Positions 25,933-51,609 of a stretch of DNA of 64,000 nucleotides are shown in pieces (position 1 is the stretch's first letter; each line of letters opens with the position of its first letter). The position numbers were made by a program, and so were the translations under genes. The notes under the pieces were generated by a model, which was not told the DNA's origin, made no database searches, and saw nothing but the letters and a program-made list of their open reading frames with translations. The DNA is taken from assembly GCF_027923555.1 (NCBI RefSeq), contig NZ_AP025523.1, positions 2,484,484 through 2,548,483 of the forward strand. The letters run 5' to 3'. The stretch comes from Vulcanimicrobium alpinum (GTDB taxonomy: Bacteria; Vulcanimicrobiota; Vulcanimicrobiia; Vulcanimicrobiales; Vulcanimicrobiaceae).

Positions 25933-26763
25933 TCAGGTCAGCTGCGCGCACCAGCGGGTGAGCGCCGCGCTCGTCGCGCCGGGCGCTTCCCACATCGGGA
26001 GGTGCCCGACGCCGTCGAGCACGACCAGTTCGCTGCCGGCGATCCCGCGCGAGATCGCCTGCTGCGACGCGACGGAGAGGTACGTGTCTTCCGCGCCCGC
26101 GACGATCAGCGCGGGGACGTGCACGTCCTCGAGCAGATCGTCGCTCGCGACGCGCTCCTTCATCCCGCGCACCAATTGCGCGCAGCCGCGCGGGTTCTGC
26201 CGCTCCATGAGCGCGCGCAGCCGCTCCACCAGCGCGGGATGGTGCGCGTAGCAATGCGGCGCGAGATACCGCGGCAGATAGCTCTCGACCGCCGCCGCCA
26301 TCGTCCCCTCCACCGCCAAGCGCGCGGCCACGGCATCGCGGCCCGCGCCGAGTTCGCGCTGAGCGGGATCGGCGTTCGGATTCCGCGCCGCGTCCGCGGC
26401 GGTATGGCTTGCGACCAGCGCGAGCCCGGCGACGCGTTCGGCGTACATGCGGAAGAACGCGAGCGCGACGTAGCCGCCGATGGAGTGCCCGGCGACGGCA
26501 GCGCGGTCGATCGCGAGCGCGTCGAGCACGCCGGCGAGGTCGCCGGCGAGCGCCTCCATCAGCGCAGGACCGTCGCTCGGCTCCGATTCGCCGCAACCGC
26601 GCAGATCGACGGCGACGACGCGCACGCCGGCGGCGGAAAGCGCCGCCGACTGCGCCGCCCACACGCTGCGGTCGAGCGGAAACCCGTGCACGAGGACGAC
26701 GGGGACACCGCGGCCGCCGAAATCGTCGTAACCGAGCCGGCGGCCCTCGATCGTGACGTTCAT
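25933..26763 (-). CDS. Alpha/beta-fold hydrolase
   Basis: A 276-residue hydrolase with HGFPLDRSVW near the oxyanion hole, the nucleophile elbow GHSIGG, the acid in VAGAEDTYLS and the catalytic His in DGVGHLPMWEAP. Layout and length fit the large esterase/haloperoxidase-like group, so the substrate remains open. Start ATG at 26763. It follows the LolA-like gene by 35 bases on the same strand and may share its transcript. Confidence 0.85.
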   Translation of the reverse strand: MNVTIEGRRLGYDDFGGRGVPVVLVHGFPLDRSVWAAQSAALSAAGVRVVAVDLRGCGESEPSDGPALMEALAGDLAGVLDALAIDRAAVAGHSIGGYVALAFFRMYAERVAGLALVASHTAADAARNPNADPAQRELGAGRDAVAARLAVEGTMAAAVESYLPRYLAPHCYAHHPALVERLRALMERQNPRGCAQLVRGMKERVASDDLLEDVHVPALIVAGAEDTYLSVASQQAISRGIAGSELVVLDGVGHLPMWEAPGATSAALTRWCAQLT

Positions 26764-28987: not shown

Positions 28988-30153
28988 AGCGGGATCACCG
29001 TCGGCGAGCCGATGCCGACCTGGAGTTGGAACACCGACGCTTTCAATCCGGCGATCGTCGGACGCGCGTCTTGGCAACCGCTGGGGCCGCCGAGCCGCTG
29101 GCACGTAATGCTCGTGATGCCGAGCTCCTTATAGTTCGTCGGTCCGCCGCCCCCGAATATTCCTTGAATGAACGTGTGCTTCGTGAAGCGGTGGGAGACG
29201 CCGTAGAGGAAGAGCGCGTCGTACTGCGGGTACGGGTCGATGGGATGATATTGCGGCAACCTCGACGGCTGGAAGAAGACCGTGGTTTTTTTATCGAAGC
29301 GGTATTCGACGTAGCCGAGCAAGAAAATCTGCGCGTGATTCGTCTGATTGACGCCGGCCGTGTGGACCAGCCACTGCGGCGCCGCCGTGATCGTCGCGAA
29401 CATCCGCGGCGTCGCGAGAAACGGCAGCGTCACAGGCAGGAGCCAAAACTGTTCCGTACGGGCATGCGCCTCCGTCGGGAAGCCGTTGAACTCGAACTTG
29501 ATGACGTCGTCGTTTCCGCCGATCGTCGCGGTGCGCGCGATGTACGTTGGTGAGATCACGATCGGCAGCACCTTGCCGCCGGGCATCCCAATGGTGATCA
29601 GGTTCTGATCGAGGACCGTCAGGATCTTGTTCTTCGTGACGTTGTCGACAAGGCCGGTGTTGGTCGTACCCAGCGACGCGCCGGGCAGGTTGGTGCCGGG
29701 TCCGGTGTAGCCTTGCAGATAGAGCGGGACATTCCGAAAGCTGAATCCGAGCGGCGTATCTTCGAACTCGAAGTAGCCGGCCTGGACGCGATTCGTATGC
29801 GAGAACGCGTATCCGAATCCGACGTCCATGCCGCCCGGAACGTTCGGCGTGTACTTGAGGTCGCCGTAGTCGTGCGTGAAGTGCACGTCCGCATTGTAGG
29901 TGAAGCCCTGCGGCAGCGAGGGCTTGTGGATCGGCGCCTGCGGGGTGCCGACCGGGTTCGCTTGAGCGACATCGGAGGGATCGAGTCGATCCCGGTCGCC
30001 GAGGAGTGCGCGCTGCAGGGTCGCATTGGCGGGAGCGAGGAGCCCGGCTTGAAGGGCGCTGGCCTCGCCCGCGTCCGCGCGAGCGGCGAGCGGCGCGAAG
30101 ACGATCGACGCGCACAGCAATGCGCCGACGACCGCCAACGGACGGTAAATCAT
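28984..30153 (-). CDS. Outer-membrane beta-barrel-like protein
   Basis: A 389-residue exported protein with a signal peptide (MIYRPLAVVGALLCASIVFA). It has many alternating, aromatic-rich strands such as VQAGYFEFEDTPLGFSF, GYVEYRFDKKTTVFFQPS and DALFLYGVSHRFTKHTFIQG. This pattern fits an outer-membrane barrel, possibly of the phenol MetA/transporter-like group. Start ATG at 30153. It heads a coupled group with the GDSL lipoprotein and the LolA-like protein. The transported or bound compound is unknown. Confidence 0.6.
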   Translation of the reverse strand: MIYRPLAVVGALLCASIVFAPLAARADAGEASALQAGLLAPANATLQRALLGDRDRLDPSDVAQANPVGTPQAPIHKPSLPQGFTYNADVHFTHDYGDLKYTPNVPGGMDVGFGYAFSHTNRVQAGYFEFEDTPLGFSFRNVPLYLQGYTGPGTNLPGASLGTTNTGLVDNVTKNKILTVLDQNLITIGMPGGKVLPIVISPTYIARTATIGGNDDVIKFEFNGFPTEAHARTEQFWLLPVTLPFLATPRMFATITAAPQWLVHTAGVNQTNHAQIFLLGYVEYRFDKKTTVFFQPSRLPQYHPIDPYPQYDALFLYGVSHRFTKHTFIQGIFGGGGPTNYKELGITSITCQRLGGPSGCQDARPTIAGLKASVFQLQVGIGSPTVIPL

Positions 30154-30244
30154 GCCGCGCGCTTGCGCGGGGTGGAGGAAGGTTCCTTCACAAAACGATA
30201 ATCTCCATGATCGGTTTCGCGGGTGGCCCGCCGGCCGGCGCGAA

Positions 30245-32140
30245 ATGACGCCCGCGATGTCGTTGCGTGCCGCCGTCGCATGGTTTCCATTCGTCGCCCT
30301 CGTCGGACAAGACGAAGCGAAGCTCGCACTGACGCTCGCCGCGATCGATCCGCGGATCGGCGGCGTCCTGCTCTCGGGTCCGAAGGGAACCGGGAAGACG
30401 ACGCTCGTGCGCAGCGCCGGCGAGCTGCTGCCGGTGCTCGAACGCGCGACCTGCGCGTACGGCTGCGATCCGCGCGGCTCGAGCCTGTGCGCGGAGTGCG
30501 CGGGGCGCGAAGCACGCGGCAAAGCGATCCCGGCCCGCAAGTCGCGCGGCACGATCGTCGAGCTCCCGTCGAACGCCCAACTCGACGACGTCGTCGGCGC
30601 GATCGACCTGCGCTCTGCGCTCGAACGCGGCGCGGTCACGTTCCGGCCCGGCCTGCTCGCTGCCGCCAACCGCAACGTCCTCTACGTCGACGAGATCAAT
30701 CTGCTCTCGGACGTCGTCGTCGACGCGCTGCTCGACGCGGCCGCGCAGGGCGTCGTGCACGTCAAGCGCGGACAGCACGCGATCGACTATCCGTCGCGGT
30801 TCGCCTTGGTCGGAACGATGAATCCCGAAGAGGGCGAACTCCGCCCGCAGATCACCGATCGCATCGGCCTGCGCGTCTTCGTCGCCGCCGCGTCCGATCC
30901 GGCGGAGCGCCGCGAGATCTACCGCCGCAACGCGGCGTTCACGCGCGATCCGCACGCCTTCGTCACGGCGCACAAGAAAGCGACCGACACCTACCGGCGG
31001 CGTCTTGCGAAGGCGATCGCGCTGCTCCCCGGCGTCGTCGTCTCCGACGACGCGGAGCGCGTCGCGATCGAAGCGGTAACGCGGTTGGGAATCGACAGCC
31101 ATCGCACGGAGATCGTCGCGCTCACCGCCGCCGCCGCGCATGCGGCGTGGCACGGACGCACGACGGCGACGGCCGACGACGTCGCGGTGGTGTTTCCGCT
31201 CGCGGCGCGTCTGCGGCGCAGCCGTCTGCGCGTCGAGGCGCTCTCCGAACATCTCGCGGAAGACGCCGCGATCGCGCAGGCGCTGGAGGCGACGGCCGGC
31301 GAGAACGATGCGAGCGCGGCGCAGAACGACGCGCTCTCGGGCGGGACGACGACGATGGTCTCGCCGGCGCTGACCGCGCGCGAACCGGCGAAAGCCCGCC
31401 CGCAGCGCGAACGCGAAGGCGACAGCGTCGCAACCGCACCGCTCGCCTCCGGCGGACGCATCGACGTCCCGGCGACGCTGCTCGACCGCGGCGTCGCGGC
31501 GCGCGCAGGGATCGCTCCCGAACCGAAGGAGCGCGTCGACGTGACGACGCCGGCGCGGCTGACCGTGCTCGTCGTCGACGCCTCGCTCTCGACGCGCGAG
31601 TCGGCCGCGGCGGTGAAAGCGGCCGGCCGCGAACTGCTGCGCCCGGTCTATACGGAACGCGAACGCGCGGCGCTGGTCTCGTGCTGGGGCCCGTTCGCCG
31701 AGATCGTCGTCGACGAGAACACCGGGCGCAACGTCGACCTCGTCGCCGCGCGGCTGGAAGAACTCGAGCCCGGCGACGTGCGCGCGCTCACTCCGCTCCC
31801 GGGCGCGCTCGAACACGTGCGCCGCATCGCGGACCGTTTCCGCCGCGCGAATCCTGGCGGCACCGTCGACGTCGCCGTCTTCAGCGACGGCCGCGCCAAC
31901 GTGCCGCTCGGCGATCCCGCGGACGTCGCGAACGCGCTGGCGGCGGGCGATGCGCGCGCGCTGGGCGAGACGGCGGCTGAACAATGCCGCGCGCTCGCCG
32001 GCGTGATCGGTACGCGCGCGCACCTCACATGCGTCAACCTCGACGCCTACGAAGCGCACCCGCTGATGCGCGAGATCGCCGAGATCGGACGCGGCCGATA
32101 CTTCGCTCTCGCCGACGTCGTCGCGCGCATCTCCTCTTAA
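30245..32140 (+). CDS. bchD: Fused magnesium-chelatase I/D subunit (ChlID/BchID-type)
   Basis: A 631-residue AAA+ plus VWA protein, so BchI- and BchD-like parts are in one chain. Walker A GPKGTGKTT is at residues about 45-53 and Walker B is LYVDEINLLSD. A Cys cluster CAYGC...LCAEC follows the P-loop, as in fused cobalt/magnesium chelatase ATPases. After an acidic, Gln/Ala-rich linker comes the VWA domain with MIDAS motif DASLSTRES and FSDGRANVP. The presence of bchH 1.3 kb downstream and bchL in the window favours Mg insertion into protoporphyrin over Co insertion. The ATG at 30245 is preferred; another ATG is at 30257. A separate bchI elsewhere is possible. Confidence 0.82.
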   Translation: MTPAMSLRAAVAWFPFVALVGQDEAKLALTLAAIDPRIGGVLLSGPKGTGKTTLVRSAGELLPVLERATCAYGCDPRGSSLCAECAGREARGKAIPARKSRGTIVELPSNAQLDDVVGAIDLRSALERGAVTFRPGLLAAANRNVLYVDEINLLSDVVVDALLDAAAQGVVHVKRGQHAIDYPSRFALVGTMNPEEGELRPQITDRIGLRVFVAAASDPAERREIYRRNAAFTRDPHAFVTAHKKATDTYRRRLAKAIALLPGVVVSDDAERVAIEAVTRLGIDSHRTEIVALTAAAAHAAWHGRTTATADDVAVVFPLAARLRRSRLRVEALSEHLAEDAAIAQALEATAGENDASAAQNDALSGGTTTMVSPALTAREPAKARPQREREGDSVATAPLASGGRIDVPATLLDRGVAARAGIAPEPKERVDVTTPARLTVLVVDASLSTRESAAAVKAAGRELLRPVYTERERAALVSCWGPFAEIVVDENTGRNVDLVAARLEELEPGDVRALTPLPGALEHVRRIADRFRRANPGGTVDVAVFSDGRANVPLGDPADVANALAAGDARALGETAAEQCRALAGVIGTRAHLTCVNLDAYEAHPLMREIAEIGRGRYFALADVVARISS

Positions 32141-32261: not shown

Positions 32262-32570
32262 ATGGCTGCCAAGAAGGCTGCTGCGCGCAAGAAAACGGCG
32301 CGCAAAGCCACCACGCGCAAAAAAACCGCGCGTAAGACCACCGCTCGCAAGAAAACGTCGGCCCGTAAGAGCACGAGCCGCAAGACCACCACCCGGAAGA
32401 AAGCCGCTCGCAGGACGACGGCGCGCAAGAAGACCAGCGCGCGCAAGAGCACGAGCCGCAAAAAGACCGCGCGCAAGACCACGGCGCGCAAGAAGTCCGT
32501 CCGCAAGGCCGCGCGCAAAGCGGCGCCGCGCCGGAAGACGGCCGCTCGCCGCAAGAAGGCCGCAGCCTAG
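32262..32570 (+). CDS. Histone H1-like Lys/Arg/Ala/Thr-rich DNA-binding protein
   Basis: A 102-residue protein made almost only of Lys, Arg, Ala, Thr and Ser in KK/RK-T-A-R units. The 16-residue unit TTARKKTSARKSTSRK occurs twice. It resembles the C-terminal tail of eukaryotic H1, bacterial AlgP and chlamydial Hc2, which compact DNA. It has its own promoter and an intrinsic terminator, so it is a separate, probably highly expressed unit. It lies between the two magnesium-chelatase genes. A regulatory link is not shown by the sequence. Confidence 0.85.
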   Translation: MAAKKAAARKKTARKATTRKKTARKTTARKKTSARKSTSRKTTTRKKAARRTTARKKTSARKSTSRKKTARKTTARKKSVRKAARKAAPRRKTAARRKKAAA

Positions 32571-32639: not shown

Positions 32640-33428
32640 GTGCGGGTCTCGTCGTTGCTCGATTCGTTCTCCGGCAGCACCTCCGATACGGTCCTCACCG
32701 GCGACGCGCTCACGCTGCTGCGGGGCGTTCCCGACGCATCGGTCGATCTGGTGATCGCCGACCCGCCGTACAATCTGGGACCGAAGTTCGCGGGCGCACC
32801 GCAATGGTCGCGCGATCCGAATTGGAACGGCTGGTGCCGCGCCTGGCTCGCCGAGTGCGAGCGAGCGCTGCGGCCCGGCGGCGCGATCTTCGTCTTCGGC
32901 ATCCACCACTACGCGTGCTATCTCCAAGTCGCGCTGTACGACCTCGGCCTCGCGTACCGCCGCCAGTTCATCTGGTATTACGAGAACGGCTTCTCGCGCT
33001 CGACGACGATGCCGAGCACGCAGTACGAGCCGCTGCTGTGGTTCACGAAGGGCGACGGTTTCACGTATCACGTGCTGCGCGAACCGTACAAGAGCAGCGA
33101 GCGGCTGCGGCATGCGATCGTGAAGAACGGCAAGGTGTGGACGCCGAACCCCGCCGGGCGCATCGCCGGCGACGTGTGGCGTTTCCCGGTCCTCGCCGGG
33201 CGCCGCTTCGCGCACGAACGGGTCGCGCACCCGACGCAGAAGCCGCTCGCCCTCGCCGACCGCATCGTGCGCCACTTCTCGAACCCGGGCGAATTCGTGC
33301 TCGTCCCGTTCGCCGGCTCCGGCACCGAGTGCGTCAGCGCGCAGCGGCTCGGCCGCCGTTTCCTCGGCTTCGAGATCTCCCCCGAGTACGCCACCCTGGC
33401 GAACACCCGCCTCCGACGGCCACGGTGA
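32640..33428 (+). CDS. DNA N6-adenine/N4-cytosine methyltransferase (orphan)
   Basis: A 262-residue beta-type DNA methyltransferase. The catalytic motif DPPYNLGPKF (about residues 41-50) precedes the SAM motif VPFAGSGTECVSAQRLGRRF near the C-terminus, and VAHPTQKPLAL is the usual motif before it. No restriction endonuclease is near, so it is probably a solitary regulatory or housekeeping methylase. Start GTG at 32640. The recognition sequence cannot be read from the protein. Confidence 0.87.
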   Translation: MRVSSLLDSFSGSTSDTVLTGDALTLLRGVPDASVDLVIADPPYNLGPKFAGAPQWSRDPNWNGWCRAWLAECERALRPGGAIFVFGIHHYACYLQVALYDLGLAYRRQFIWYYENGFSRSTTMPSTQYEPLLWFTKGDGFTYHVLREPYKSSERLRHAIVKNGKVWTPNPAGRIAGDVWRFPVLAGRRFAHERVAHPTQKPLALADRIVRHFSNPGEFVLVPFAGSGTECVSAQRLGRRFLGFEISPEYATLANTRLRRPR

Positions 33429-38587: not shown

Positions 38588-38665
38588 CGAGTTGATGTTG
38601 GCGTGACGGCGTTTTTCGCGTATTATAAGAGCAAGTCTCCTCATACCTTGGTGAGGTTGCGGCCG

Positions 38666-39748
38666 ATGCGGACTCATGATGAGCAGCGTGCATCCGTTTG
38701 GACGACGTTGCAGCCGGAAGACACCGTGCCCGGCGATCATCCGTTGCGCCCGATGCGCGTGATGGTCAACGAAATTCTGCGCGAACTCTCGCCGGAGTTT
38801 TCCAAGCTCTACTCCCGACGGGGCCGGCCATCGATCGCGCCGGAGAAGCTGCTGCGAGCCTTGCTGTTGCAAATGTTCTACTCGATCCGCAGCGAGCCGA
38901 TGCTGCTGGAGCAGTTGCGTTACAATTTGCTCTTTCGTTGGTTCGTGGGCTTGAGCATGGACGACAAGATCTGGGACCCCTCGACGTTCAGCAAGAACCG
39001 CGATCGGTTCTTGAATGGCGAAATCTCCGAGCGGTTCTTCGCCGCCGTGGTCGAGCGGGCGCGTGCCGACGAACTGCTCTCGAACGAGCATTTCACCGTC
39101 GATGGGACGCTAATCGAGGCGTGGGCCAGCCACAAGAGCTTTCGGCCCAAGTCGGACGACGAACCGCCGACCTCGAGCGGCGGTCGCAACGAGGGCGTGA
39201 ACTTTCGTGGCCGGCCGCGCAGCAACGAGACGCACGTCTCGAGTACCGATCCGGACGCGCGGTTGTACCGCAAGAGCAGCGGCGCGCCGGCGATTCTCGG
39301 CTATCTCGGACATGCTCTGATGGAGAATCGCAACGGCTTGATCGTCGGCGTGAAGACCACTCGCGCGACCGGGATCGCCGAACGCGAAGCAGCGCTGGAA
39401 TTGATTCGCGGGGTCAGCGGAAGCAACCGAATCACGCTCGGCGCCGACAAGGCGTACGATACCAAAGACTTTGTCGAGGCGTTGCGAGCGCTCAACGTGA
39501 CGCCGCACGTTGCTCAAAATACGACCCGTCGCCGCAGCGCGATCGACCGCCGAACCGTCCGCCATCCGGGCTACACGGTGAGTCAACGCAGGCGCAAGTT
39601 GATCGAGGAGAGCTTCGGGTGGGGCAAGACGATCGGCCGATTGCGCAAGGTGCATTTCCGCGGGCTTGATCTGGTCGGCGACATTGTGCGCTGGACGGCC
39701 GCGGCGTACAACTTGATCAGGATACGCAATCTGAGGGCCGCGACATGA
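38666..39748 (+). CDS. IS5-family transposase
   Basis: DDE transposase of 360 residues from the ATG at 38666 (MRTHDEQRASVWTTL); the frame opens at 38603 as well. An N-terminal DUF772-type DNA-binding region (RRGRPSIAPEKLLRALLLQM, SMDDKIWDPSTFSKNR) is followed by the catalytic core: Asp in HFTVDGTLIEAWAS, Asp in TLGADKAYDTKDF and Glu in RRKLIEESFGWGKTI. The gene is undamaged, in keeping with an element able to move. Confidence 0.93.
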   Translation: MRTHDEQRASVWTTLQPEDTVPGDHPLRPMRVMVNEILRELSPEFSKLYSRRGRPSIAPEKLLRALLLQMFYSIRSEPMLLEQLRYNLLFRWFVGLSMDDKIWDPSTFSKNRDRFLNGEISERFFAAVVERARADELLSNEHFTVDGTLIEAWASHKSFRPKSDDEPPTSSGGRNEGVNFRGRPRSNETHVSSTDPDARLYRKSSGAPAILGYLGHALMENRNGLIVGVKTTRATGIAEREAALELIRGVSGSNRITLGADKAYDTKDFVEALRALNVTPHVAQNTTRRRSAIDRRTVRHPGYTVSQRRRKLIEESFGWGKTIGRLRKVHFRGLDLVGDIVRWTAAAYNLIRIRNLRAAT

Positions 39749-49046: not shown

Positions 49047-50600
49047 TCACACCGGCGCGCCGGCCCGCATCCGTTCGCGAAGCAGCCTCGCGCGTTCCCG
49101 CACCGCAACGCGCCAGGCCGCGGGACGGCCGGCCCAGGCGCGGACGATCACGCGCATCCGATGGTTGGCGGCGAAGCGCCGCTCGTTGCGCGCGATGAAG
49201 TCCCAGTAGAGCGCGTTGAAGGGACACGCGTCCTCGCCCGTCGCCTGCTTCGGATCGTACCGGCAGCGCCCGCAGTAGTTCGACATCTTGGCGATGTAGT
49301 TCGCCGAGGCGGCATACGGCTTCGTCCCTACCAGGCCGCCGTCGGCGTGCAGCGCCATCCCGATCGCGTTGGGCGCCATCACCCAATCGTAGCCGTCGAC
49401 GAACATCGCGTGAAACCAGTCGTGCGCCTCGCGCGGAACGACGCCCGCGATCAGCGCGAAGTTGCCCAGCACCATCAGCCGCAGGATGTGATGCGCGTAG
49501 GCCGTCTCGCGGACGTGCGAGACCGCTTCCCGCATGCAGAACATCCGCGTCTGCCCGTCCCGGTAGAATGCGGGGAGCGGCAGGTCGGCGCCGAGCGCGT
49601 TGCGCTCTTTGTATTCCGGCATCCAGCACCGGTACGTCCGCCAGACGAACTCGCGCCACCCCAGCACCTGCCGTACGAAGCCTTCGACCGACGCGAGGCG
49701 CGCGCGCCCGCTGCGGAACGCGAGTTCTGCGCGCTCCACGACTTCGAGCGGGTGCAGCAAGCCGACGTTGATCGCGGCGGAGAGCAGGGAGTGCGACATC
49801 GCGCGTTCCCCCGCGACCATCGCGTCCTGCCACGGCCCGAACGTATCGAGCCGGCGTTCGCAGAAATCGTCGAGCATCGCCAGTGCGTCGGTGCGCGTCA
49901 CCGGCAGATCCCAGTCGCCGATATCACCGGGGTGATCGCCGAAGTGCGTCTCGACCGTTGCGATCGCGCCGCGCGTGATTGCGTCGGGCGGGAACGTCGC
50001 GCGCGGCGCAAACCGCAGGCCCGTCTTCGGCGGCGGGCTGCGGTTCTCGCGATCGAAGTTCCATCGGCCGCCGGCCGGCTCAGCCCCGTCCATGAGCACT
50101 CCGGTCTTCACCCGCATCGCACGGTAGAACGTCTCCATCGTCACCCGCGCGCCGTCGCCGCGCAGCAGGCGATCGTAGTCCTCCGGCTCGCTCACCACGT
50201 TCGAGGGCGGCGTGACGTCGACCGGCAGGCCGTGCTCGTGCGCGAGCGCGCACAAGCGCTCGGTCATCCCCCATTCGCTCTGCTCTTCAATGCGCAGGCG
50301 CGACGGCGCCGAAACGGCGACGTGCGCGGCGAACGCCTGCGCGAAGTCCGGCTGTTCCGCCCGGTAATCGACCCGCCACCCGGCGGCGCGCAGGTCCTCC
50401 GCGAAATGGCGCATCACCGCGTAGATCAGCACGAGCTTGCGCTTGTGGTACGGAAGCATCGCACCGCGCGCGACCGACTCGATCATCAGCACGATGCTGC
50501 GCGCGGGATCGGCCCCGGCCAGGGCGGAGTTGCGCACCGAGCACTGGTCGCCGGTGATCCAGATGGTCGTCGGCCCGTCCGCCGAATGGTCTGCAGTCAT
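49047..50600 (-). CDS. phrB: Iron-sulfur cryptochrome/photolyase (FeS-BCP, PhrB-like)
   Basis: Flavoprotein of the bacterial (6-4) photolyase/iron-sulfur cryptochrome group, 517 residues. N-terminal Rossmann part: WITGDQCSVRNSAL, YHKRKLVLIYAVMRHFAEDL. Flavin-binding helical part: AINVGLLHPLEVVERAE, GFVRQVLGWREFVWRTY, YAHHILRLMVLGNFALIAGV. Four cysteines for a [4Fe-4S] cluster are at MFCMREAV, YCGRCRYDP and DACPFNALYW. Members repair (6-4) photoproducts or act in light signalling. The ATG at 50600 lies on a CATG shared with the divergent ABC ATPase gene; ATG 50609 is an alternative. Confidence 0.9.
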   Translation of the reverse strand: MTADHSADGPTTIWITGDQCSVRNSALAGADPARSIVLMIESVARGAMLPYHKRKLVLIYAVMRHFAEDLRAAGWRVDYRAEQPDFAQAFAAHVAVSAPSRLRIEEQSEWGMTERLCALAHEHGLPVDVTPPSNVVSEPEDYDRLLRGDGARVTMETFYRAMRVKTGVLMDGAEPAGGRWNFDRENRSPPPKTGLRFAPRATFPPDAITRGAIATVETHFGDHPGDIGDWDLPVTRTDALAMLDDFCERRLDTFGPWQDAMVAGERAMSHSLLSAAINVGLLHPLEVVERAELAFRSGRARLASVEGFVRQVLGWREFVWRTYRCWMPEYKERNALGADLPLPAFYRDGQTRMFCMREAVSHVRETAYAHHILRLMVLGNFALIAGVVPREAHDWFHAMFVDGYDWVMAPNAIGMALHADGGLVGTKPYAASANYIAKMSNYCGRCRYDPKQATGEDACPFNALYWDFIARNERRFAANHRMRVIVRAWAGRPAAWRVAVRERARLLRERMRAGAPV

Positions 50601-51609
50601 GCCGATCATCGAGACGCGCGATCTCCGCAAGGTGTTCCGGACCCTCGTCCGGCAGCCGGGCGTCGCCGGCTCCCTGCGCACGCTCCTCTCGCGGACGTAC
50701 GAAGACAAGGTCGCGGTCGAGGGCGTGACGATGGCGCTGGAGGCCGGCGAGCTGGTCGGCTACATCGGCCCCAACGGCGCGGGGAAGTCGACGACGATCA
50801 AGATGCTCACCGGGATCCTCGTCCCGACGTCGGGCGAGGTCCGCGTCGCCGGGCTGGTCCCCTACGAGCAGCGCCGGCGCAACGCGCGCAACATCGGCGT
50901 CGTCTTCGGGCAGCGCTCGCAGCTGTATTGGGATCTGCCGCTGATCGAGTCGTTCGAATTGCTGCGCGCGATCTACGGAATCCCGAAGGAGCGCTACGCC
51001 GCGAACCTCGCGCACTTCACCGAGACGCTCGACATGGGCCCGTTCTTGCAGACGCCGGTGCGCCAGCTCTCGCTCGGGCAGCGCATGCGCGGCGACTTCG
51101 CCGCGGCGATGCTGCACGATCCGCGGGTCGTCTTCCTTGACGAGCCGACGATCGGCCTCGACGTCGTCGCGAAGGAAGCGATCCGCGAGTTCGTCGCCCG
51201 CGTGAACCGCGATCGCGGGACGACCTTCATTCTGACCACGCACGATCTGGCCGACGTCGAGCGGCTCTGCCGCCGCATCGTGCTGATCGACCGCGGCACG
51301 CTCGTCTACGACGGCGAGATCGACGCGCTGCGCGACCGCTACGGCACGCACCGCACGCTCGTCGTCACGTTCTGCGAGAGCTATCCCGACGTGGCCGTCG
51401 AGGGCGCGGAACTCGAGTCGCGCGAGGGGACGACGGCGCGCCTGCGCTTCGACCGCCGCACGACCTCCGCCGAAGTGCTGATCCGGCGGGTCGCCGACCG
51501 CTACTGCATCAGCGACGTCTCGATCGAAGAGCCCGAGCTCGAGTCGATCATCCGCCGGATCTACCTGGAAGGCTACACCGAGGCGCCCGCGCTTACGGCA
51601 CCCGCATGA
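50599..51609 (+). CDS. ABC-2-type exporter ATP-binding protein
   Basis: A 336-residue ATPase of the subgroup paired with DUF990 permeases. Long N-terminal insertion (TLVRQPGVAGSLRTLLSRTY), Walker A GPNGAGKSTTIKML, Q-loop VVFGQRSQLYWDLP, signature LSLGQRMRGDFAAAML and Walker B VVFLDEPTIGLDVVAKEAI. A C-terminal domain follows (about 240-336). Start ATG at 50599 (MPIIETRDLRKVF). Its two likely permeases are at 52161-52994 and 58402-59199. The substrate of this family is not established. Confidence 0.88.
   Translation: MPIIETRDLRKVFRTLVRQPGVAGSLRTLLSRTYEDKVAVEGVTMALEAGELVGYIGPNGAGKSTTIKMLTGILVPTSGEVRVAGLVPYEQRRRNARNIGVVFGQRSQLYWDLPLIESFELLRAIYGIPKERYAANLAHFTETLDMGPFLQTPVRQLSLGQRMRGDFAAAMLHDPRVVFLDEPTIGLDVVAKEAIREFVARVNRDRGTTFILTTHDLADVERLCRRIVLIDRGTLVYDGEIDALRDRYGTHRTLVVTFCESYPDVAVEGAELESREGTTARLRFDRRTTSAEVLIRRVADRYCISDVSIEEPELESIIRRIYLEGYTEAPALTAPA

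Follow-up and report, generated by a model that had tools for sequence, protein, structure and literature searches.

A single-chain I/D chelatase gene, bchID, as the probable magnesium-chelatase motor of Vulcanimicrobium alpinum

We propose, at a probability of roughly 85%, that the bchID gene of Vulcanimicrobium alpinum encodes the complete ATPase motor, with both the I and the D function, of the magnesium chelatase that starts bacteriochlorophyll a synthesis together with the BchH encoded nearby. Insertion of magnesium commits tetrapyrroles to (bacterio)chlorophyll. The gene lies in the stretch of 64,000 nucleotides that was analysed (the window; 68.6% GC), which belongs to a genome of one contig of 3,508,363 bases. 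The proposal rests on gene content, sequence motifs, a predicted ATPase fold, co-occurrence across the phylum and the phylogeny of the large subunit.

V. alpinus WC8-2, a member of the Eremiobacterota that makes bacteriochlorophyll a and has a genome of 3.50 Mbp with 68.4% GC (PMC9758169), is presumably the strain studied here. For WC8-2 and other Eremiobacterota the same report described a "possible" BchI-BchD fusion with Walker A/B motifs and a C-terminal vWA domain that formed its own clade. This fused BchID is very probably our bchID gene, and since it is already in print the fusion itself is not new. It was the one report found in our literature search on BchI-BchD fusions, for which subscription papers were outside the scope, and the portions of it available to us did not contain the sole-gene status, cobalamin synthesis, BchH or ring composition. 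In the literature as far as it was accessible, no report was found of the sole-gene status, the missing corrin pathway, the 6/6 co-occurrence or the separate origin of the ATPase half, though they may still have been published.

The reading frame, its two halves and the linker

The open reading frame at 30152-32140 (+) spans 662 aa and has in-frame ATG codons at 30152 and 30245, the latter giving the 631-aa product considered here (Table 1). Its third-position GC was 0.86, which is of coding type. In the profile searches, the whole chain was best matched by TIGR02442 (418.9 bits, cut-off 779.45), the N-terminal half scored 283.9 bits against the BchI-ChlI equivalog TIGR02030 (cut-off 466.95), and the score against the BchD-ChlD equivalog TIGR02031 was 240.4 bits (cut-off 499.55), each below its cut-off.

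Table 1. Features of bchID and neighbouring genes, with positions in the window
Feature	Position	Strand	Basis or remark
bchID, single-chain chelatase motor, 631 aa	30245..32140	+	ORF, profile scores, third-position GC
AAA+ ATPase half, residues 12-329, ChlI/BchI fold	30278..31231	+	profiles, predicted structure, fold search
Walker A, GPKGTGKT	30377..30400	+	motif reading
Cys loop, CAYGCDPRGSSLCAEC	30452..30499	+	motif reading
Walker B, VLYVDEIN	30677..30700	+	motif reading
Sensor-1 segment, GTMNPEEG	30812..30835	+	motif reading
Presumed Arg-finger segment, TDRIGL	30854..30871	+	motif reading
Linker, residues 330-437	31232..31555	+	without in-frame slippery heptamer
VWA (integrin-I) half, residues 438-631	31556..32137	+	profile matches
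MIDAS DxSxS, DASLS (usual chelatase form DASGS)	31577..31591	+	motif reading
MIDAS Thr segment, RALTPL	31781..31798	+	motif reading
MIDAS Asp segment, FSDGR	31880..31894	+	motif reading
Histone-H1-like ORF rich in Lys/Ala/Thr/Arg	32262..32570	+	HC2, 33.4 bits (cut-off 40)
DNA N4/N6-methylase ORF	32640..33428	+	PF01555, 157 bits; between H1-like ORF and bchH
bchH, sole CobN/BchH-type large subunit in genome, 1304 aa	33473..37387	+	profiles, tree
Transposase ORF (DUF772 + DDE_Tnp_1)	38603-39748	+	just past bchH and a DUF2721 gene
Deoxyribodipyrimidine photolyase-related protein	49047-50708	-	PF04244, 185 bits

In the ATPase half, Walker A, Walker B, the sensor and the Arg finger were all intact, TDRIGL being the segment that we take to be the finger of this family. 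The fold predicted from an alignment of 52 sequences (49 of the 55 listed loci plus 3 sequences) had a pLDDT of 86.6, compared with 38.7 when 3 sequences were used. A fold search returned BchI of R. capsulatus (1g8p) as the best match, with Z 35.4 and rmsd 3.4 over 319 aligned residues, followed by cyanobacterial ChlI entries and then by MCM helicases at Z ~24; the list was filled by ATPase matches and the result concerns the ATPase half only. In the VWA half the MIDAS was complete (DASLS, TPL and SDG), and the profile of this half matched three BchD VWAs at 97.2%. Among the other phototrophic relatives, the ATPase motifs were kept in all three whose ATPase half could be read (with GSKGIGKT in one), and the MIDAS motifs in all five whose VWA could be read (with DASQS in genome G060). 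This recurrence excludes chance.

Thus the first-pass annotation, which had placed a single-chain I/D chelatase with an intact P-loop and Walker B and a MIDAS-bearing VWA domain at this locus, was borne out in its location by frame, profiles, motifs and fold, and in both domains. Two other points that it had raised turned out to be ordinary. The Cys cluster is indeed present, as a four-Cys loop placed after Walker A, but this loop is common in the superfamily, and Thiodictyon BchI and many of the fused relatives have it too. The linker (107 aa) is acidic only mildly, with 17 D/E, 10 K/R and 8 P, and does not resemble the Pro/Glu-rich tract of BchDs; it is 46-59% identical among the phototrophic relatives.

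The full-length ID could be accompanied by a VWA-less, I-like chain generated by proteolysis, by an internal stop or frameshift, or by internal initiation, and a conventional I-rich, D-poor ring would then still form, as has been proposed for frameshifting chlD genes. Genes of this kind have been described for cobalt-type chelatases and in some further bacteria (PMC9227772), and an I5D ring, which a pure fusion would be unable to make, is favoured in a review (PMC13297055). Furthermore, the +1 frame of bchID has stops at codons 376, 433 and 439, and codon 433 is also the site of an AGGAG-GTG pair. However, the zero-frame stop after the I part and the slippery site of fs-chlD were not found, bchID being one continuous frame: no in-frame X_XXY_YYZ heptamer occurs in the linker, the gene has just two, both within the VWA half (codons 481 and 518), and the -1 frame runs without a stop to codon 578. 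An internal start at codon 433 was set aside because the GTG is not conserved; judged from aligned residues it is possible only in V. alpinum and G118, and not in G090, G061 or G095. The halves of the G060 gene lie in different frames, but this change falls at a 70-N gap and the BchH of that genome is also in two pieces, so it was rejected as evidence of frameshifting. Taken together, two products from bchID, which are the main alternative to our proposal, seem unlikely, although they might arise by proteolysis.

Partner genes and distribution in the phylum

The complete one-contig genome yielded no second BchI/BchD-type gene with the profiles TIGR02031 and PF01078, against both of which every first-look candidate was scored. 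The other AAA+ matches checked were YifB (584 bits), a Lon-type protease, ClpX, two MoxR-type ATPases and a ClpB-type domain. Given that MoxR-type proteins are present, one of them or another AAA+ protein might supply the I function while bchID acts only as D. Yet the MoxR proteins of V. alpinum resemble BchI only in the AAA+ signatures, and bchID retains every ATPase motif that is missing from the sampled true BchDs, and we consider such a division of labour improbable.

A PF02514 search of the same genome gave one large-subunit gene only, bchH, whose product scored 590 bits against TIGR02025, below the cut-off of 829. Two Photo_RC genes and four nitrogenase-like NB/YZ genes are located ~6-24 kb past the right end of the window; a BchH-type partner and a bacteriochlorophyll pathway are hence found in the genome that carries bchID. 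This gene content, with a sole I/D gene and a single PF02514 gene beside reaction-centre and NB/YZ genes, speaks for the magnesium-chelatase reading.

The best profile of bchID being TIGR02442, it could instead be the motor of a cobaltochelatase, a ChlID of that kind working with CobN. Fused I/D proteins adjoining CobN-type genes are common, and in G089, another genome of the Eremiobacterota, the ID gene adjoins CobN and cobalamin genes. However, the TIGR02442 score remained under the cut-off, the G089 protein is only 36% identical to that of V. alpinum, the sole large subunit falls on the BchH side (see next section), and the occurrence of bchID follows that of reaction centres. Neither a CobN partner nor a corrin pathway was found in the V. 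alpinum genome; it had no corrin-ring methyltransferases, its three TP_methylases being a uroporphyrinogen-III methyltransferase, RsmI and a MazG-type protein. From the sole I/D gene, the single BchH/CobN gene and the lack of corrin methyltransferases, a cobaltochelatase role would be very unlikely. The medium in which WC8-2 was tested on substrates included vitamin B12 (PMC9758169), which is compatible with the missing corrin pathway but proves nothing.

The first-pass annotation had left two options, a self-sufficient motor for BchH or a cobalt chelatase part with the BchI elsewhere, and had suggested a search for a separate bchI. None was found in the complete genome, and the observation it named as contrary, separate bchI and bchD genes together with a cobalamin pathway lacking its chelatase, was sought and not found either. 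The second option is not supported, as neither a separate BchI nor a second large subunit nor a set of corrin methyltransferases turned up. The first, in which self-sufficiency itself is a prediction, gains genomic support from the lack of any other BchI/BchD-type gene, the one BchH and the 6/6 association with reaction centres.

This association was seen across 149 genomes of the phylum. A reaction centre was found in six of them, and close ID relatives, 63-72% identical to the V. alpinum protein, in exactly the same six (V. alpinum included), with p = 7e-11 if the genomes are assumed to be independent, which they are not, though the six represent six genera. A PF02514 large subunit was present in all six and otherwise only in G089 and G138; G138 lacks a reaction centre and carries an ID together with broken I-like pieces. 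Reaction centre, large subunit and close ID relative were all missing from the 10 further genomes of the V. alpinum genus (G119-G128), which suggests that the phototrophy genes as a set were gained or lost together. The ID was complete in 3/6 genomes, those of G061 and G095 being cut at contig ends and that of G060 having the gap in its linker, and the single-chain state was thus directly visible in three. In G060, AcsF lies immediately upstream of bchID and BchH immediately downstream, and in G090 BchM and AcsF lie upstream; these neighbours and the co-occurrence in six of the 149 genomes argue for the magnesium-chelatase reading. In each phototrophic genome the large-subunit matches were confined to a single contig, and in G060 and G061 they were split into pieces. 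This is different from an earlier study, in which BchH and a BchH-like gene were described for two Eremiobacterota MAGs (PMC6664022). No bchID relative was found in the viral contigs searched.

As to the surrounding genes, the H1-like ORF lies directly 3' of bchID in 5/6 phototrophic Eremiobacterota genomes (besides the window, at L023 3440-3790, L024 3373-3780, L025 1132-1464 (-) and L026 1222-1566), and in G118 bchH follows directly after it. The methylase ORF is probably unrelated to the chelatase. A divergent alpha/beta hydrolase gene stands beside bchID in G118 and G090 (L180 654-1577 (-) and L181 5562-6422 (-)); a similar one is found at 25933-26727 (-), 3.5 kb from bchID, and another beside the orphan ATPase of the Herpetosiphon genome described below. 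These hydrolases were rejected as BchO, since they scored 38-55 bits against a cut-off of 172.55 (true BchO 307 and 324).

Ancestry of the large subunit and of the two halves

The large subunits of five Eremiobacterota phototrophs formed one clade on the BchH side of the tree (95/89), away from CobN. Its neighbours were BchH of Thiodictyon, Tateyamaria and Roseinatronobacter and three Chloroploca large subunits, and the large subunit of G138 and three archaeal ones made up an outer group on the same side. The CobNs, those of G089, Spirosoma and Streptomyces among them, formed the other half (100/100). The placement on the BchH side, the lack of corrin methyltransferases and the bacteriochlorophyll a made by WC8-2 (PMC9758169) all point to a magnesium chelatase.

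The ATPase halves grouped (100/100) with two orphan ATPases of Chloroflexota of 348-350 aa, here called I2, from genomes reached through Chloroploca and Herpetosiphon loci, and fell outside the clade of the three BchI sampled, a joint clade with canonical BchI having an AU p=0.033; sampled canonical BchI outside the ID group included purple and Chloroflexus-type ones. The VWA halves clustered together at the end of a long stem. The best tree did not join them with BchD, but the AU test did not reject such a grouping (p=0.109), and this half is left unplaced. Both AU tests were run on groups already visible in a previous tree. For the ATPase trees, 64 of 111 rows and then 35 were used (named long-branch rows taken out and every fourth other row kept), with three fragments and the ATPase half of Roseobacter BchD, which was too degenerate, left out; for the VWA trees, 49 of 87 rows and then 35 were used (named long-branch rows taken out and every third other row kept). 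The trees were without Chlorobi, heliobacteria and cyanobacteria. The relatives sampled were the best 80 loci of a longer list and I2 came from three genomes searched, so nearer kin of the ATPase half may exist. The position of the ATPase half apart from sampled BchI, the unplaced VWA half and the sub-cut-off NCBIfam scores count against the magnesium-chelatase reading.

Among the sampled proteins, the I2 ATPases (L177 8509-9558 (-) and L178 7855-8898 (+)) come closest to the bchID ATPase half, and that of Herpetosiphon has the Cys loop. Unlike bchID, they have no VWA, and no VWA or large-subunit gene was among the neighbours listed.

A possible two-protein chelatase and its known counterparts

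In cyanobacteria, the MIDAS-bearing VWA of ChlD binds ChlH and ChlI hydrolyses ATP (PMC6604950). In V. alpinum, the AAA+ halves of bchID would form a ring with ATP hydrolysed at the interfaces, and the VWA half, via MIDAS-bound Mg2+, would dock on BchH carrying protoporphyrin IX. ATP-driven movement could then pass through the linker and the VWA to BchH and drive Mg2+ insertion. With I and D in one chain, such a ring would be homomeric and contain several VWA domains, not one D per ring as in I5D; a chain that works without being processed would place a VWA on each subunit of the ring, at odds with the I5D model. The full proposal, that of a two-protein magnesium chelatase in which an unprocessed homomeric ID ring drives BchH, the I5D asymmetry is not needed and the motor comes from an I-type ATPase lineage other than that of the sampled BchI, has in our estimate about an even chance of being right.

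According to a 2026 review, there is no structure of the complete magnesium-chelatase complex, and HI5D has been proposed (PMC13297055). The numbers of I and D subunits in the motor are modelled, not yet seen. A cultured phototroph with a one-chain ID, in which I:D = 1:1 is fixed by genetics, would offer a direct test of the I5D model. Furthermore, a one-chain ID could simplify heterologous bacteriochlorophyll synthesis.

Among known systems, the fused I/D cobaltochelatases (TIGR02442; for example those of G089, Spirosoma and Streptomyces) are similar to bchID in joining an active-type AAA+ and a VWA with MIDAS in one chain. They are usually ~600-750 aa, their MIDAS is mostly DASGS and their Walker A mostly GxKGTAKS, and their partner is a CobN in cobalamin loci, whereas that of bchID is on the BchH side. 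For example, G089, of the same family as V. alpinum, has a CobN (1137 bits, cut-off 822) and genes for a PduO-type adenosyltransferase, CobG, CobI/CobJ and CbiD, and its ID is without the Cys loop. The frameshifting chlD genes (PMC9227772) likewise encode I and D in one gene, but yield two proteins by programmed frameshifting. BchI/ChlI and BchD/ChlD of other phototrophs share with bchID the BchI fold, the MIDAS VWA, the BchH partner and, presumably, the function; however, they are two separate proteins, and the sampled BchDs have a Pro/acidic tract and are without Walker motifs.
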